NCBI GenBank assembly: GCA_945876035.1
Contig: CAMCMU010000037.1
Span: forward strand, 1-47,623
Direction of reading: 5' to 3'
DNA from: Schlesneria paludicola DSM 18645
Lineage (GTDB): Bacteria; Planctomycetota; Planctomycetia; Planctomycetales; Planctomycetaceae
DNA: 47,623 nt
Under the pieces are notes generated by a model. It did no database searches and was not told the origin of the DNA. It worked only from the letters and a program-made list of their open reading frames with translations. How positions within the stretch are numbered: the first letter of the stretch is position 1; every line of letters starts with the position of its first letter. Both the position numbers and the translations under genes were made by a program. Shown here one piece after another: positions 2,052 to 26,563 of the stretch.

Positions 2052-3707
2052 ATGCGAATTCAAATGTTCAAAAAAACAACAGTTTGTCTGTTGTTCGCGA
2101 GTTTTTTCTGGCCAGATCCGGTACTCGTCGCGCAGGAAAGTTTCTTTCGCAAAACAACGACAGAACTGGGGTTGGATGATTCAGCTCAAGGTGAGATTTT
2201 CCCGGGGCTGAGAGAAGTTAACACGGAGGCTCCCACGGAGTTCGTTGAGGTTGCAATCCAAGATGGTGACCGTCCATTGCCCATTAATTTGGCGGCAGCG
2301 TTGCAACTCTCAGGCGCTCGACCATTGATTATTGATGCCGCCAAAGCCGCAGAAATGGTTGCCGCAGCGCAACTTCAAAAAGCCAATGTTCTCTGGCTTC
2401 CCAATGTTTATCTCGGTATCGATTACTTCCGCCACGATGGTCTGAATATTGAGACGGATGGTACGCCTGCCAATAGTAATCGCCAATCAATGACGGTTGG
2501 GCCTGGTCTTTCTGCCGTTTTTGCGACGACAGATGCCATTTACGAACCTCTGTCCGCAAAGCAAATACTAAGAGCCAAGAAGTATGAGATTGAGGCGGCC
2601 AAGAATGATGCCCTGATGGAAGTATCGGTTGCCTATTTTAATGTCCAGCAGGCAAGAGGCCGGTTGGCAGGGACTGTCGATACAGTGAATAAAGGGAAAG
2701 ATCTTGTCAGAAAAGCGGTTGTCTTAAGCAAAGGTCTTGCCGCTCCGGTGGAGATTGATCGTTCCAGAACCTTGCTCGCCGAGTTGGAAGAAAATGCGGT
2801 ACAGGCACGCAATGACTGGAAAGTTGCAAGTGCTGAACTGGCGAGGCTATTAAGATTAAATCCAAGTGCCCAGATCGTACCCGTCGAACCGCCTCATCTG
2901 GCAATCAAGCTGATTTCTCCGAGTCAGGAGTTGGATGGCTTGATAACGACAGGGCTTTCCTGCAGGCCAGAGTTGCGTTCCAGCCAGGCCGTAGTTCAAG
3001 CAACGCTGGTAAAATTGAAACAGGAAAAAATGCGTCCGTTGATTCCCAGTATTGTGCTTCAGGGTAATAGCGGTGCGAATGGAGTCGGTGCACCTTTAAT
3101 TGGTGGTTTCGCAGCGGAAGGTCCAGGGGGGACTCTGCAATGGGGAAACCGGTTCGATTTAAATGCCTCCGTATTATGGGAGCTGAACAACTTTGGCTTT
3201 GGCAACCGCGCACTCATCAGAACACGCGAAGCCCAGCGGCAAGTCGCGTTGGTCGAATTGTTTATGATCCAAGATCGTGTTGCTGCAGAAGTGGTGCAAT
3301 CGCAAGCCCAATTGGTCGCGGCCTCCGAACGGATCGCCTTGGCAGATGCCGGTCTTAAAAATGCCCTCATCAGTTATGACGGCAATCTTCAAGGCATGAG
3401 TGAAACAACTCGCTTTGGCGATATTCTCGTGCTGGTGAACAGGCCTCAAGAAGTCGTGGCAGCATTGCAGCAGCTGAATGTTGCCTACCGGAGTTACTTT
3501 ACGTCGGTTCAGGATTACAATCGTTCGCAGTTCAAATTATTCCGGTCGGTTGGTTACCCGGCAGCTGTCCTAGCGATTGAAAAAAATCCTAGCGTTCCGA
3601 TCGATGTTGATACCACAAGGCCATATGATTTGCCGCCTGTTACGGGGATTCGATACGCAAATATCAGTTACAGCAGTTTCTCTCCTGCGATGCCGACCGA
3701 CTATTAG
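2052..3707 (+). CDS. TolC-family outer-membrane efflux protein
   Basis: This 551-residue protein should form the outer-membrane channel of a tripartite RND efflux pump. A signal peptide is visible at residues 1-27 (hydrophobic LLFASFF core ending near VLVAQ). After about 70 residues comes the typical OEP repeat start, LPINLAAALQLSGARPLIID. Two long alpha-helical, Ala/Gln/Glu-rich segments with VAYFNVQQARGRL (about 195-207) and VAEVVQSQAQLVAASERIAL follow, separated by beta-strand regions. The C-terminal stretch beyond residue 500 is proline-rich. The length is somewhat above the usual 420-500. It converges on the adaptor-permease pair at 3732-8454, the likely partner, but is transcribed separately. 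The stop codon lies inside the palindromic terminator. The substrate cannot be told. Confidence 0.85.
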   Translation: MRIQMFKKTTVCLLFASFFWPDPVLVAQESFFRKTTTELGLDDSAQGEIFPGLREVNTEAPTEFVEVAIQDGDRPLPINLAAALQLSGARPLIIDAAKAAEMVAAAQLQKANVLWLPNVYLGIDYFRHDGLNIETDGTPANSNRQSMTVGPGLSAVFATTDAIYEPLSAKQILRAKKYEIEAAKNDALMEVSVAYFNVQQARGRLAGTVDTVNKGKDLVRKAVVLSKGLAAPVEIDRSRTLLAELEENAVQARNDWKVASAELARLLRLNPSAQIVPVEPPHLAIKLISPSQELDGLITTGLSCRPELRSSQAVVQATLVKLKQEKMRPLIPSIVLQGNSGANGVGAPLIGGFAAEGPGGTLQWGNRFDLNASVLWELNNFGFGNRALIRTREAQRQVALVELFMIQDRVAAEVVQSQAQLVAASERIALADAGLKNALISYDGNLQGMSETTRFGDILVLVNRPQEVVAALQQLNVAYRSYFTSVQDYNRSQFKLFRSVGYPAAVLAIEKNPSVPIDVDTTRPYDLPPVTGIRYANISYSSFSPAMPTDY

Positions 3708-3727
3708 TCCGTCAGCATCGCAGGAGA
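3681..3727. terminator. Bidirectional palindromic terminator between convergent efflux genes
   Basis: A 13-base arm at 3681-3693 is perfectly complementary to 3715-3727. Pairing continues inward (3695-3697 with 3711-3713, 3699-3703 with 3705-3709) with two single mismatches. The stop codon of the TolC-like gene (3705-3707) is in the loop side, and the adaptor gene ends at 3732 on the other strand. No long T-run follows, so termination on either strand is inferred from the position and the stem strength. Confidence 0.7.
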
Positions 3728-19538: not shown

Positions 19539-19664
19539 TGTCGCTAGATTCTACGGCACCATCAGATTCATTCTCTCGCGGCAGAGTTTTTCTGATACAC
19601 TGCGTTCCCTTGCGAGATCGAAATGAAATTCTTTCTTCAGTCATGTCAGCGAGGATATCCGCCG

Positions 19665-20444
19665 ATGCTACTCTATTTTCGAAATGTCCGAACGACAACC
19701 GTAATCATCGGGATGCTGATCGGTTCGATCGGTTTTGGCTGTGCGAGAGTCAAGCTAACAACCCCCTCTGTGACCGTGACAACATCCCTAGAAGCACCAG
19801 GTGAGGGGAAAATCGGACACGATCCAGACGGCGACGGGGCGAAAAATCTAACAACCCCCTCTGTGACCGTGACAACATCTCTAGAAGCACCAGGTGAGGG
19901 AGAAATCGGACACGATCCAGACGGCGACGGGGCGAAAAAGGTGACAACATCCTCGACAACATCCTCGACAACACCCTCGACAACACCCTCGACAACACCC
20001 AGTGAAGGAAAAGCGGACATGGCTTCCACCAACGATGCCGATGCGTCTCGTGTTCGGCAGTACAATAGGCTGACAAAAGCTGAAGAATTCGTGATCGTCA
20101 AGAAAGGGACCGAACGCCCGTTTGTTGGTGAATATACGACTCTGAAAGCCGCAGGGACTTATGTCTGCCGACGCTGCAACGCGCCGCTGTATCACTCGAA
20201 AGACAAGTTTGAAAGCCACTGCGGGTGGCCCAGTTTCGACAATGAAATTCCCGATGCGGTCCGCAGAGTCTCCGATATCGATGGCCAGCGGACAGAGATC
20301 GTGTGCAAGACTTGCGGTGGGCATCTTGGCCATGTGTTTCTTGGCGAACGCCTCACCAATAAGAATACCCGCCACTGCGTGAACTCGTTGTCGATGAAGT
20401 TCTATCCGGAAGGAACGCCGCTTCCGACTGTCGTCCAGAAATAA
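19665..20444 (+). CDS. msrB: Lipoprotein peptide-methionine (R)-S-oxide reductase with repetitive linker
   Basis: This 259-residue protein reduces the R form of methionine sulfoxide. A lipoprotein signal ends in GSIGFGC (lipid Cys 26). It is followed by two identical-looking 31-residue linker repeats, then a TTSS/TTPS-repeat linker. The catalytic domain occupies about the last 130 residues: zinc motifs CRRC and [19 protein letters not shown] with a probable resolving Cys, and [15 protein letters not shown] with the catalytic Cys. The ATG at 19665 has AGGA 9 bases upstream and gives a compact signal peptide; another in-frame ATG lies at 19623. The layout predicts an outer- or inner-membrane-anchored repair enzyme on a flexible tether. 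Confidence 0.92.
19755..19940 (+). repeat. 93-base tandem duplication inside msrB linker
   Basis: Two copies (19755-19847 and 19848-19940) differ at only a few bases. Each codes for 31 residues containing a [10 protein letters not shown] segment and the Asp-rich DPDGDG motif. The high identity indicates a recent duplication, and the DPDGDG element resembles calcium-binding loops. Confidence 0.9.
19944..20003 (+). repeat. 12-base tandem repeats coding TTSS/TTPS
   Basis: Five units of the ACAACAyCCTCG type (12 bases each) encode a Thr/Ser/Pro tether directly after the 93-base repeats. The last unit is divergent. The array should be prone to slippage and length variation without changing frame. 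Confidence 0.85.
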
Positions 20445-21390: not shown

Positions 21391-22731
21391 ATGAACGGTA
21401 CCGAGTTGCTTCGCATTGTTGACGCGATTCACCGCGATAAAAGTATTGACAAAGAGATCGTATTTGAGGGAATCGAGCAGGCCATTCTTTCGGCGGCACG
21501 CAAACACTTCGGTGAGGCCGACGAAATTGAGGTTCACGTTGATCGGGTTCATGGGAATCCAACCGTCAAGTCGAACGGAATCGAAATTGATGCGGATGCT
21601 TTGGGTGACCTGCTCGGCCGAATTTCTGCACAGACTGCCAAGCAGGTCATGATTCAGAAAATTCGCGAAGCGGAGCGAGACGCTCTTTTTGAGGAATATA
21701 CAGAGCTTCGCAATCAGATCGTGGCCGGGACGGTGAGTAAGATTGAAGGCGGATCGGCTGTCGTGGCTCTCGGTAAAGCGGAAGGCTTGCTTCCACGAGG
21801 TGAGCAGATCCCGGGTGAAAGTTACCGGGTCGGTGATCGAGTGCGCGCCACCGTTCTGGAAGTGCGAAAATCCGGAAGCCGAGTCAAAATTATTCTCTCG
21901 AGGACTCATGTGGAGTTCGTTCGGCGGTTGTTTGAGCTGGAGATTCCGGAAGTTTCTGAGCGAGTCATTGAAGTACGTTCTCTGGCTCGCGAAGCGGGAT
22001 ATCGATCGAAGGTTGCTGTGTCTTGCCTCGACAGCAATATTGATTCCGTCGGTGCTTGCGTGGGTGTTCGCGGTGCGAGGATTAAGAATATCACGGGTGA
22101 ACTCGGCGACGAAAAAATCGACATTGTTCGCTGGAATGACTCGTTGCAGGTGCTGGTTCCCAATGCTCTACAGCCGGCCGAGGTCGAGGATGTGATTCTG
22201 TGTCCCATGCTGGGGCGTGTCATTGTCTTGGTCAGGGATGATCAATTGTCGCTGGCGATCGGGAAGCGTGGTCAGAATGTCCGTCTGGCATCCAAGTTGG
22301 TGGGATGGGATATTGAGGTTATGACTCAGGAAGAGCTCGATGAGCAGCTTGAACGTGCCGTTCAAGCGTTTGCCGAGGTTCCTGAATGCACTGCAGAACT
22401 GGCCGAAAGTCTGGTCGCTCAGGGGTTCTTAAGTTTCGATGACCTGTCTGTGATTGAGCCCGATCAATTACGCGAAATGGGCGGATTGACCGAAGAGCAG
22501 TCCGACAAAATTGTTTCTTTTGCGGAAAAAGAAAGTGAACGTCTTGAAGCGGAGCAGCGAAAGCGCCGCGTGGTTGAGAAATCACAGTTTACGAGTCCTA
22601 GGCCACTAACGCCGGTGGCGGAGGTGGTGCAGATACCTGCGGTCGAGCCTGATGTTGCGCCCGAAGCTCAGAAAGAAGAATCCTCAGAGTTGCCGGCGGA
22701 GCCAGATCCGAGTCTGTCGACGGTCAGCTAA
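21391..22731 (+). CDS. nusA: Transcription termination/antitermination factor NusA
   Basis: This 446-residue RNA polymerase-binding factor controls pausing, termination and antitermination. The N-terminal domain ([20 protein letters not shown]) is followed by an S1 domain (about 130-200, [20 protein letters not shown]), KH1 with [22 protein letters not shown]2 with [20 protein letters not shown], and a C-terminal acidic repeat with [21 protein letters not shown] Pro/Glu-rich tail ends it. The ATG at 21391 is chosen from the family start; the frame is open upstream. GGGGA lies about 9 bases before it. It heads the nusA-infB-rbfA group. Confidence 0.95.
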
Positions 22732-22926
22732 GGGAGAGTCAGACGAGTGGAGTGGTCGGACCAGAATTTTCAGTTTATTGTTGGAATCGAATATGCGCCG
22801 TCAAATAGACTATGCGGGTCTTTCGAAATCGGAATGGCTTCAGATTGTCTGTCGAGTGAGTTTTTCAGTCAATGAGTGACAAACTCAAATTGAGGGCGCA
22901 AGTGTCTTGAATGCTTGGGATTTAGT

Positions 22927-23093
22927 GTTCTCTTAGGGGATAATGCTCTCGACGGGTTAGCTGCCCGACGTGTGAATCAAAGCCGGATTGGCAGAGCGTC
23001 CAATCGAAAAAAATAGAGTCACCACAGCTAGCGAGCTGTTGGATTCGATGGTCTTGGGCGAGTGAGAGCATTACCCCGAACGAGGAACTGCGT
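22927..23093 (+). promoter_or_regulatory. Structured 5' leader RNA of infB that buries the ribosome site
   Basis: The segment 22927-22950 pairs with 23064-23088 over about 23 base pairs. It includes an uninterrupted 10-pair helix (22941-22950 with 23064-23073) and a 4-pair GGGG/CCCC helix, separated by single-base bulges. Inside are three local hairpins: CGGG/CCCG (22953-22956, 22964-22967), GATTGG/CCAATC (22986-22991, 23000-23005) and CAGCT/AGCTG with an AGCG loop (23025-23029, 23034-23038). The 3' arm contains the infB Shine-Dalgarno GAGGA (23082-23086), just before the TTG start at 23094. The segment 23000-23008 could instead pair with 23044-23051, giving an alternative fold. I know no named RNA family that fits. 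Confidence 0.65.
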
Positions 23094-25934
23094 TTGAAAA
23101 TTCGAATCTTTGCTCTTGCTAAAGAGCTCGACATCGACAGTAAGCTGTTAATTGATCACTGTGCCAAGGCTGGAATCACGATCAAAAATTCCGCGTTGGC
23201 GAGTATTTCGCCGGAACAGCGGGATTTGGTTCTGGAAATCATTCGTTCGGCCAATCAGCCGGCTTCAGGTGCTCCGGTGGCTGCGGAATCCTCTCCGCCG
23301 GTGCCGAAAGACCAACTGCCGGAGTTGATTCACAAAGCACGTTCAATCCGCAATATGTCACCTGCCGTTGGCAAGTTGGCTCGGATCCAGAATGGTGATC
23401 TGGAAGTCCAGCCGAAAGAGCCTTCAGCGGTCATCCCGTCAGACTTGCCGGCGGACGATCCAGCCCAGCCGAATTTCAAAAAAACTGAAAAAATCGCTGA
23501 AATTAAGGCAGATCTACTGTCTGATCCTCAACCAGTGGAGTTGACAGCCGACGTCGGTTCCGAATTGGCGGGTCAGCAAAATTCAGATCCAGAAAATCCA
23601 GATCCAACAGTTGGGTCCTCCGTGATTGCCGCCGAGCCAGAGTCATCAAATCCGGCTCGCGGTCCACTCGCTCGGTCAGAGATACAGCCACCTGTTGGTC
23701 AGGCGCCACGTGCGATGCGATCAATGTCAATGACCGCTCGACCTTCCTCCGATTTTGGAGGAGCCAAGCCCGGGTTGCCCAAGAAGGCGAGGGCTTCCGC
23801 GCCGAATTTGGCCGCGATACCGGATTATAAGCGACCCGCCTCGAAAGTCCCGGTTCCCGCCGAAATGGCGCCTCAAAAACCTGTGATCCGTTTGAATTCG
23901 GACGGGCAACAAAAGACGGCGAGTCCTCTGCGCGCCCATCTGCCAAAGAAGGGTACGGATAACAAAAAACGCCCCGTCAACGATCAAGAAGAAGGCGCAT
24001 CCCCGAAGTCGCGTCAGGCAGATCTCGGCAGAAATCTGGAAGAAAGCCGGTTGCTGCGAAGGACCAAAAAAACCTCGTCCAGATCCGAGGAAGAAGAAGA
24101 AGTTCGCCGTCGTACCAGTCACGTCCGCCCCAAACAACGGAAGCATGTCCGCCCTGAGTTGAAAACAACGGCGGAAGTTGATTTTCCGATGACCGTGCGT
24201 TCGCTTTCGGAGGCTATCGGCCGGCCCGCCAAATCGATCATTCAAATTCTCTTCGCGCGTGGCGATATGGTGACGATTAACTCGTCGCTCCCGGAAGATT
24301 TGGCGATTGAAATCTGCCTCGAACTGGGTGTCGATCTGAATATTCGACGCGAGAAAGACATTGAGCAGCACGTCGCCGAGGCCGCCGTTGGCGAAGACCG
24401 ATCTGAAGACATGATGCTTCGCCCGCCGATCATCACGATTTTGGGGCATGTCGATCACGGTAAGACGACGCTTGTTGATAAGTTGCGTTCCGCCAATGTG
24501 GCGGCCTCTGAATATGGTGGCATCACCCAACATATTGCGGCTTACCAAATTCAGCATAACGGCCACCTCTTGACATTTGTCGATACCCCGGGGCATGCCG
24601 CGTTTGGTGAAATGCGCGCCCGCGGTGCCAACGTGACCGATATCGTTGTCTTGGTCGTTGCCGGCAACGACGGTGTCATGCCTCAAACAGTCGAATGCAT
24701 TTCGCATGCAAAGGCTGCTGGAGTTCCGATCGTGGTGGCCATGAACAAAGTGGACTTGCCTGACCGGAATGAGCAACGCGTTCTCACCGATCTTTCAACG
24801 CACGGTGTTCTGGCTGCCGAATGGGGTGGCGACGTGGAGGTTGTGCGAACCTCGGGCATGACGGGACAGGGGCTTGCGGAATTACTCGATACGATTTTGC
24901 TGACCGCCGATCTGCACGAATTTAAGGCGAATCCCAACCGCCCAGCTTCAGGAAATTGTCTGGAAGCGTTTCGAGACGAGGGACGTGGTCCGCTGGCATG
25001 GATCATCGTAAGAACCGGGACTCTGCGCGTCGGCGATGCGGTCCTGTGCGGCGAGGCCTATGGACGTATTCGCGCCATGTACAATGAACGCGGCGAAGAA
25101 ATTACCGAAGCTCCTCCCTCAATGCCCGTTAAGGTCGCCGGATTGGATATCGTTCCTAGTCCCGGTGATGCGTTTTTGGCGCTTAATGATTTAGATGCGG
25201 CGCGTGAGGCGGCGGAGCAACGTCGACAGAAGGGCCGGGCGGCATTGCTGTCAAACATGGGAGGCCGACGAACGCTGGAAGACATCCTGAATGCCGCCCG
25301 CGAGGGTGAAGTACAGGATTTGAAGGTGATTCTCAAAGGCGACACTCCTGGCTCGATCGAAGCGCTACGAGGTGAGCTAGCCAAGTTTGAGCACCCTGAG
25401 GTTCGTATCAAACTGCTGCACGACGGTGTCGGTGGCGTCAATGAAAGCGACGTGTATCTGGCGGCCGCATCGAATGCCGTTATTTTCGCATTCCATGTGA
25501 TTGCTGAAGATCGAGCGCAGTTGTTGGCTCTGCAAGAGGGCGTCGAAATTCGTCGCTATAATATCATCTATGAGATCATGGATGAGATCAAACGCATTCT
25601 TGAGGGAATGTTGCGGCCGGAAAAGAGAGAAGTTGTGACTGGTCGTGCTATTGTGCTGCGAACTTTCAGCATTACGCGATTCGGTACAATTGCCGGTTGC
25701 CGAGTGTTAAATGGTGCCATTGAGCGTTCGCATCGTGTGAACTTGATTCGCGATCAAAAAATACTGCACACCTATGGCATCGCATCACTCAAGCGAGAGA
25801 AGGACGATGCGAAGGAAGTCCGTGAGGGTATGGAGTGTGGTATTCGCCTTGAAAATTACAACGACATCAAAGAAGGTGATTTGTTGGAAGCGTTTAAAAT
25901 CGAAGAAGTCAAGCGGACTCTGTCCTCCGTTTGA
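23094..25934 (+). CDS. infB: Translation initiation factor IF-2
   Basis: This 946-residue GTPase places initiator tRNA on the small ribosomal subunit. The N-terminal IF2_N domain starts at the TTG ([19 protein letters not shown]), followed by a long, disordered Pro/Ala/Lys-rich region (about 60-340), a second IF2_N domain, and the G domain. G-motifs are GHVDHGKTT (about 451), DTPGHAAF and NKVDLP. Domains II and III and the C-terminal fMet-tRNA domain ([20 protein letters not shown]) follow. The TTG start has GAGGA 7 bases upstream inside the structured leader. It is 362 bases from nusA, unusually far for this operon, because of the leader. Confidence 0.97.
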
Positions 25935-26059: not shown

Positions 26060-26563
26060 ATGAATTCACGTCGATCGGAAAGAGCTGCCGAAGCAATTCG
26101 AGAGACCGTCAGTACAACGGTGCTGTTCGGACTACGCGATCCGAGGATCAAAAACGTGACGGTCCTCGGTGCCGAGGTGTCGAATGATTTGCGGGTGGCG
26201 AAGGTCTTCGTGACAATCATGGGCGACGCTAAAGCTCAGTCTCTCGCCATGCACGGTCTCAACTCGGCGCGTGGATTCATCCAATCCAAGGTTGCGGATC
26301 GTCTCCAAACTAAATACACACCGGTGCTGAGTTTTGTGCTCGATCCGTCCGTCAAGAAAAGTATTGAAGTTTCACGGACATTGAAGGCCGTTCTTGCCGG
26401 TGGGGGAACGGTTGATACGGACTTCGATAGCGATATGGATAGCGATATGGATAGCGATATGGATACTCCGGCGGTGAATACGAATGAGGGGCCGGCAGTC
26501 GATTCTCACAATGATGGGGTGTTGCCGCTGGATGTGTCGCATCCCGACAATGCTGATAAATAA
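26060..26563 (+). CDS. rbfA: Ribosome-binding factor A with acidic repeat tail
   Basis: This 167-residue protein binds the 30S subunit during maturation of the 16S rRNA 5' end. The KH-like RbfA domain (residues 1-115) starts MNSRRSERAAEAIRETVSTT and includes LRDPRIKNVTVLGAEVSNDL and FVLDPSVKKSIEVSRTL. An added acidic tail of about 45 residues contains the DSDMDSDMDSDM repeat and is not part of the core family. It is 125 bases after infB and 34 bases before the next gene, so probably in the same transcription unit. Confidence 0.93.
   Translation: MNSRRSERAAEAIRETVSTTVLFGLRDPRIKNVTVLGAEVSNDLRVAKVFVTIMGDAKAQSLAMHGLNSARGFIQSKVADRLQTKYTPVLSFVLDPSVKKSIEVSRTLKAVLAGGGTVDTDFDSDMDSDMDSDMDTPAVNTNEGPAVDSHNDGVLPLDVSHPDNADK
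26426..26461 (+). repeat. 12-base triple repeat in rbfA coding DSDM
   Basis: GATAGCGATATG is present three times head to tail (26426-26437, 26438-26449, 26450-26461), in frame, adding acidic residues to the RbfA tail. It is a probable slippage site. Confidence 0.9.

Follow-up and report, generated by a model that had tools for sequence, protein, structure and literature searches.

Autoregulatory leaders of ribosomal-protein and translation-factor genes are exemplified by those of rpsO and infC in Escherichia coli. IF-2, the product of infB, is essential. For the infB operon itself, two papers describe (i) the rimP-leader, a short terminator motif in the 5' UTR of the rimP-nusA-infB operon (PMC2965389), and (ii) P4, an E. 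coli promoter in the nusA-infB intergenic region that acts on transcription (PMC6511841). Among the matches listed in the literature that we searched, no leader of the kind reported here was found between nusA and infB. We analyzed a stretch of 47,623 nucleotides (the window), which is a contig of a 4.7-Mb Schlesneria genome and in which nusA, a 362-nt spacer, infB, and rbfA lie in that order, all three genes having been checked with Pfam (Table 1). The spacer contains a genuine, genus-level leader of infB, marked by a conserved 5' block and a covarying structure. Throughout, W denotes the infB leader of the window, and L followed by a number denotes other loci.

Table 1. Coordinates of the nusA-infB-rbfA locus and of the parts of the infB leader in the window.
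Feature	Position	Strand	Basis or remark
nusA, gene 5' of the spacer	21391..22731	+	Pfam NusA_N, S1, KH_5; start codon picked by reading
nusA-infB spacer, 362 nt, contains the leader	22732..23093	+	ORF ends and infB start
Conserved 5' block (anti-Shine-Dalgarno strand, P1 5' strand, 13-base element)	22924..22975	+	51/52 identical in L002
Anti-Shine-Dalgarno strand GTTCTCTT	22927..22934	+	Partner 23079-23088 in the fold of 22927-23093
P1 5' strand GGGG-A-TAATGCTCTCG	22936..22951	+	Pair probability 0.98-1.00 (22936-22939, 22941-22950), 0.47 (22951)
13-base element GGGTTAGCTGCCC, consensus GGGYTRGCWRCCC	22954..22966	+	In 15/15 genus leaders; hairpin probability 1.00 in W
Variable interior, further predicted hairpins	22967..23062	+	Fold; not conserved in L002
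P1 3' strand TGAGAGCATTACCCC	23063..23077	+	Fold and pair probabilities
infB Shine-Dalgarno (SD) GAGGAA, within the closing stem	23082..23087	+	Sequence and pair probabilities
infB (IF-2), TTG start at 23094	23094..25934	+	Pfam IF-2, GTP_EFTU, IF2_N
rbfA, gene 3' of infB	26060..26563	+	Pfam RBFA

Other parts of the window were noted in passing: an in-frame DSDMDSDMDSDMD repeat in the C-terminal tail of rbfA (26060-26563); direct repeats near the N-terminus of the ORF at 19623-20444, whose C-terminus we take to be MsrB-like; and an inverted repeat at 3681-3727, with about 20 predicted pairs, between two convergent genes. This last feature is probably an ordinary bidirectional terminator; judging from their translations, the genes that flank it presumably resemble those of an outer-membrane efflux protein and an efflux adaptor.

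A preliminary description of the window had proposed a structured leader with a multibranch shape over 22927-23093, and this region does fold as a closed multibranch structure of -62.7 kcal/mol (z -3.47), with none of 200 shuffled sequences equally stable. The closing stem, which covers the infB GAGGAA, had been given as roughly 23 bp; a long stem is present, but it comprises about 20 bp (22927-22951 with 23063-23088, including a 10+4 bp core) and is interrupted by a bulged A22940 and an internal loop. Pair probabilities are 0.98-1.00 for 22941-22950 with 23064-23073 and 0.98 for 22936-22939 with 23074-23077, while the outer stem, 22927-22932 with 23082-23088, adopts two registers (best partners 0.53-0.85) and contains the GAGGAA. 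Both this motif in the 3' arm and the TTG that it was said to serve are present. Of the three clean hairpins described as enclosed by the stem, conserved sequence is found in the first only (22954-22966). The idea of a switch at 23000-23008, able to pair to its left or its right, was not borne out: predicted pairing to the left is at most 0.03 and to the right up to 0.97, and L002 does not conserve these bases.

Stability by itself is neither decisive nor exceptional for this leader, because 4 of 572 plus-strand stretches of the same length (24 shuffles each) score a z as low, and it therefore cannot serve as proof. The arrangement of the stem was compared with chance as well: the window contains a single 10-bp inverted repeat with arms 60-220 nt apart that continues for 4 bp past a bulge no larger than 1x1, and 60 block shuffles contain 0.18 on average (maximum 3). 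With the z shared by those four stretches and the stem found once against 0.18 per shuffle, the sequence alone thus gave a fair lead to the leader, not proof.

We therefore turn to relatives, the comparison set being the window genome and 14 other genomes of the same genus. A related leader is present at infB in 15/15 of these genomes. With the window leader and coding start as query, Blast matched infB in all 14 other genomes; outside L002, the matches take in no more of the leader than its final 14 to 37 bases, together with the coding start. The leaders fall into types A (W and L002), B (L004, L005, L006, and L016), and C (the nine leaders L003, L007-L009, and L011-L015). Within clade A, the 5' block is 51/52 identical between W and its nearest relative, L002, against 40-nt identities of 0.28-0.65 in the flanking spacer; within clade C, a 79-nt 5' domain has a mean column identity of 94%, and the other spacer parts diverge. 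Each of the 15 leaders contains the 13-base element GGGYTRGCWRCCC. When its clade C form was used as the query against five leaders of types A and B, matches as good arose, per 500 shuffles, once for W, 17 times for L026, three times for L023, never for L024, and twice for L016; elsewhere in the genomes, the 13-mer is about as common as its reversed control. The leader types track the IF-2 tree, and the comparison points to one leader that is changed along lineages, because in that tree A and C are each supported at 100/99, B at 83/95, and A together with B at 81/89.

Conservation of the 5' block would also be expected if it were an infB promoter, TTGGGA-18-GATAAT (22915-22944), with the stem secondary and a transcript from ~22951 lacking the 5' arm. 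The site matches the consensus at 9/12 positions, the two strands of the region together hold three promoter-like sites where shuffles give 0.3, L002 retains GATAAT, and E. coli has P4 between the same genes, according to the excerpt of PMC6511841. However, GATAAT is confined to clade A rows and is missing at the aligned place in B and C, the -35 part is not included in the conserved block, conservation continues through the 13-base element, and the covariation described below would be left unexplained; we consider a promoter an unlikely account of the block. A boxA/NusB-S10 or NusA antitermination site in the spacer seems scarcely credible. Adjoining nusA there is indeed a CTCTTA in clade A and a CTCTTTTA in clade C, but neither has a counterpart in clade B rows, and the sole CTCTT within 700 nt upstream of the 16S gene in genome G003 is followed by C. 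That rRNA leader, whose likely boxA we take to read AGATCTTTGAAAAC, was used for the comparison because no 16S gene was found in the window's own genome. A search of L160 with an E. coli-like boxA gave no match.

Structure was compared within and between the clades. For clade C, RNAalifold predicted a clamp (TCTTTTAGGGAAA/TTTCCC..GAAGGA) spanning the SD, together with a GCCCG/CGGGC stem, one small hairpin, and one long arm; 96.0% of cells are paired. The structure and its score come from one and the same alignment: both partners have changed in 10 of 72 pairs, compared with a mean of 4.4 for shuffled alignments (none of 500 scored as high) and with 1-5 when the structure was slid. Helices 8 and 9, in the variable interior arm, account for eight of the ten double-sided changes. 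The clamp hardly varies among the C leaders, the covariation lying elsewhere, and clade C therefore carries little covariation information on it. The arms of the closing stem were also paired across leaders: mean pairing is -25.2 kcal/mol for a leader's own arms, -25.7 within a group, and -21.2 across groups. After removal of row and column means, a fraction of 0.0038 of permutations do as well, a value from which relatedness is not removed and in which some rows are nearly identical. The preference for own-group arms is seen in A and C, not in B; with the A and B rows alone (alignment A5), RNAalifold did not recover the clamp, and the fold z-scores of four tested relatives range from -0.88 (L004) to -3.38 (L007). 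Compensatory changes in the long stem had been named as the support to look for; the arms pair better within A and within C than across, the stem is nearly invariant in C, and the covariation is mostly in the interior arm.

A stem of about 20 bp in an operon spacer might, alternatively, be a site for a double-strand-specific, RNase III-like enzyme that separates the nusA mRNA from that of infB, any masking of the SD being incidental; a figure legend in the excerpt of PMC6511841 mentions RNase III sites for the E. coli operon. Such a site would make the conserved element and the anti-Shine-Dalgarno strand superfluous, and the stems of clade B are weaker, so that we hold cleavage to be rather unlikely as the role of the stem.

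Prediction of the clamp on the SD was examined in two fold settings, with the leader trimmed to its 5' arm and with the whole spacer. In trimmed leaders, the SD pairs with the 5' arm at a probability of at least 0.53 in 12 of 15 cases, the others being L005 (0.05), L011 (0.20), and L016 (0.29); with slightly different trimming, it pairs with a strand more than 110 nt upstream in 13 of 15 (0.42-0.78). Folding of the whole spacer left pairing of at least 0.5 with the 5' arm in only 6 of 12 leaders, the values for W and L032 being 0.21 and 0.33 and those for L024, L029, L030, and L031 not exceeding 0.08. In W, the P1 core stays under this setting (0.60 on average across 24 bases of the 3' arm), and total SD pairing is 0.70. 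The clamp itself is thus predicted unevenly, and in several relatives it is not the favored fold predicted for the whole spacer; the earlier statement that the leader buries the ribosome site is supported in so far as the leader can cover it.

Total SD pairing hardly differs from that obtained with shuffled upstream sequence (0.62 versus 0.55 in W) and lies below it in L005, L013, L015, and L016. The share of SD pairing that is long-range exceeds the shuffled share in 13/15 leaders, yet 0-9 of 30 shuffles reach it; for L005 and L016, 17/30 and 28/30 do. In 240-nt stretches, which cut off the 5' arm of clade C, SD pairing over more than 90 nt upstream averages 0.33 in 11 Schlesneria loci versus 0.12 in 19 others. 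An SD within a stem would also suit a simple RNA thermometer, and IF-2 is cold-induced in E. coli according to the excerpt of PMC6511841. Warming from 5 to 55 C, however, lowers the predicted SD pairing of W only from 0.72 to 0.54, and that of L002, L004, and L007 by less (5 of 15 leaders tested), and we regard a thermometer as very improbable.

The 13-base element is better conserved in sequence than in predicted pairing. Its GGG/CCC hairpin has a probability of 0.93-1.00 in W, L002, and L005 and of at most 0.31 in the other 12 trimmed leaders; in clade C predictions, the element is otherwise paired. Because the sequence is kept while the predicted pairing differs between clades, the element behaves as if it were recognized by sequence or able to refold. 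A likeness to the anticodon arm of initiator tRNA is a lead only: the GGG/CCC stem agrees, as does the U in second place in the loop, but there is no CAU, and the W loop has a U where tRNAs carry a purine. Reading the loci of 30 of the 42 tRNA matches gave two tRNA-Met, whose anticodon arms lack GGG/CCC, and a tRNA search of the window found none.

A tiny ORF, ATG CTC TCG ACG GGT TAG (22943-22960), begins in P1 and stops inside the 13-base element. Were this short uORF (start 22943-22945, MLSTG, stop TAG at 22958-22960) translated, its ribosome could open or close the clamp and so sense initiation capacity. An ATG or GTG stands at the same site in 8/9 clade C leaders, and by reading a start codon is also present in the rows of clades A and B. 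The ORFs differ, however, in length, content, and stop, L007 has no start, and AATGC can equally be kept for pairing with GCATT. We judge such a role for the uORF to be improbable. A conserved protein-coding uORF in clade C was rejected, as frame and stop are not kept.

The range of the leader was mapped with two profiles. R1, which represents the 5' domain and was trained on 13 of the 15 genus leaders, found one site per genome, at infB, in 15/15 genus genomes. Among the 155 other genomes of the family, it gave two marginal matches (E 0.005 and 0.006, with Infernal's stricter filters), which lie in other genera and were set aside, no IF-2 motif having been found nearby; the order-wide set consists of the same 170 genomes as the family set. 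Against 30 loci outside the genus, mostly infB starts, R1 found nothing at E<=1 with filters off. R2, a profile from clade C alone, ranked the B leader L005 first in a 12-locus set (E 0.066) and W third (E 1, element only), with L002 at E 5, and did not recover the W copy at E<=1 when searched over the whole window. Because R2 recovers the A copies weakly or not at all, the link from A to C is drawn from the shared position, the order in which the parts occur, the 13-base element, and the intermediate leaders of B.

Candidate further copies were also considered. L103, in the window's own genome (34 nt at 85%, E 3.7e-4), has an unremarkable fold (z +1.15) and was ascribed to chance; a pattern written to include it found no second site in the other genus genomes. 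L104 lies within a coding region and was likewise rejected. As separate observations, L103 (1490-1640 of contig C4) carries a clade C-like motif, CTCTTTTGGGGAAACATTGGATCCCG, outside infB, and the window genome's own infB leader is without that part.

Taken as a whole, we give an even chance to the reading that this is a structured, cis-acting leader, vertically inherited in the genus Schlesneria, in which an SD-covering stem limits translation of infB. If the RNA, compact at about 165 nt in the window, is made as drawn, the upstream strand would pair with the infB Shine-Dalgarno region, the P1 stem would clamp that pairing closed, and initiation on infB would be held back as long as the clamp stayed shut. 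The 13-base element beside P1, with the conserved clade C 5' domain, would be the likely recognition site for a putative effector, which would shift the balance and might be a small molecule or else a protein, for instance IF-2, NusA, or one of the ribosomal proteins. A bolder version, which we think quite unlikely, makes the leader a feedback sensor of initiation capacity: the 13-base element, perhaps through the tiny ORF, would read IF-2 or initiation complexes, refold between the hairpin and other pairings, and so open or close the clamp. Through such a sensor, IF-2 would be under direct autoregulation by an RNA, something that the literature searched did not turn up.

No relevant Rfam match was found in the window at the gathering threshold; up to E 10, only a minus-strand snoRNA match (E 6.5) appeared in 22700-23200, and up to E 5 there was none in L011, as anticipated in the view that no known riboswitch or ribosomal leader fits. 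The further suggestion of an undescribed planctomycete control of IF-2 retains its basis in the structured leader, its predicted capacity to cover the SD, and the lack of an Rfam match, but the range is one genus, and "planctomycete" is too wide. We place the leader in the known class of cis-acting translational leaders. Like the autoregulatory leaders of rpsO and infC, it would be a structured RNA 5' of a translation gene that can cover the region of the start; it differs in being genus-restricted and not in Rfam, and a non-systematic look identified no rRNA-like mimic. Like the rimP-leader attenuator, as the excerpt of PMC2965389 presents it, it would be a cis-acting RNA of the same operon, but it lies between nusA and infB, and 22700-23200 contains no terminator-like site (a stem followed by a U-run). 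No SD-covering leader is described for P4 in the excerpt of PMC6511841, but the leader would be like P4 in controlling infB separately from the same spacer, and a clamp on the infB start would be a lineage-specific way to set IF-2 apart from NusA, encoded in the same operon.
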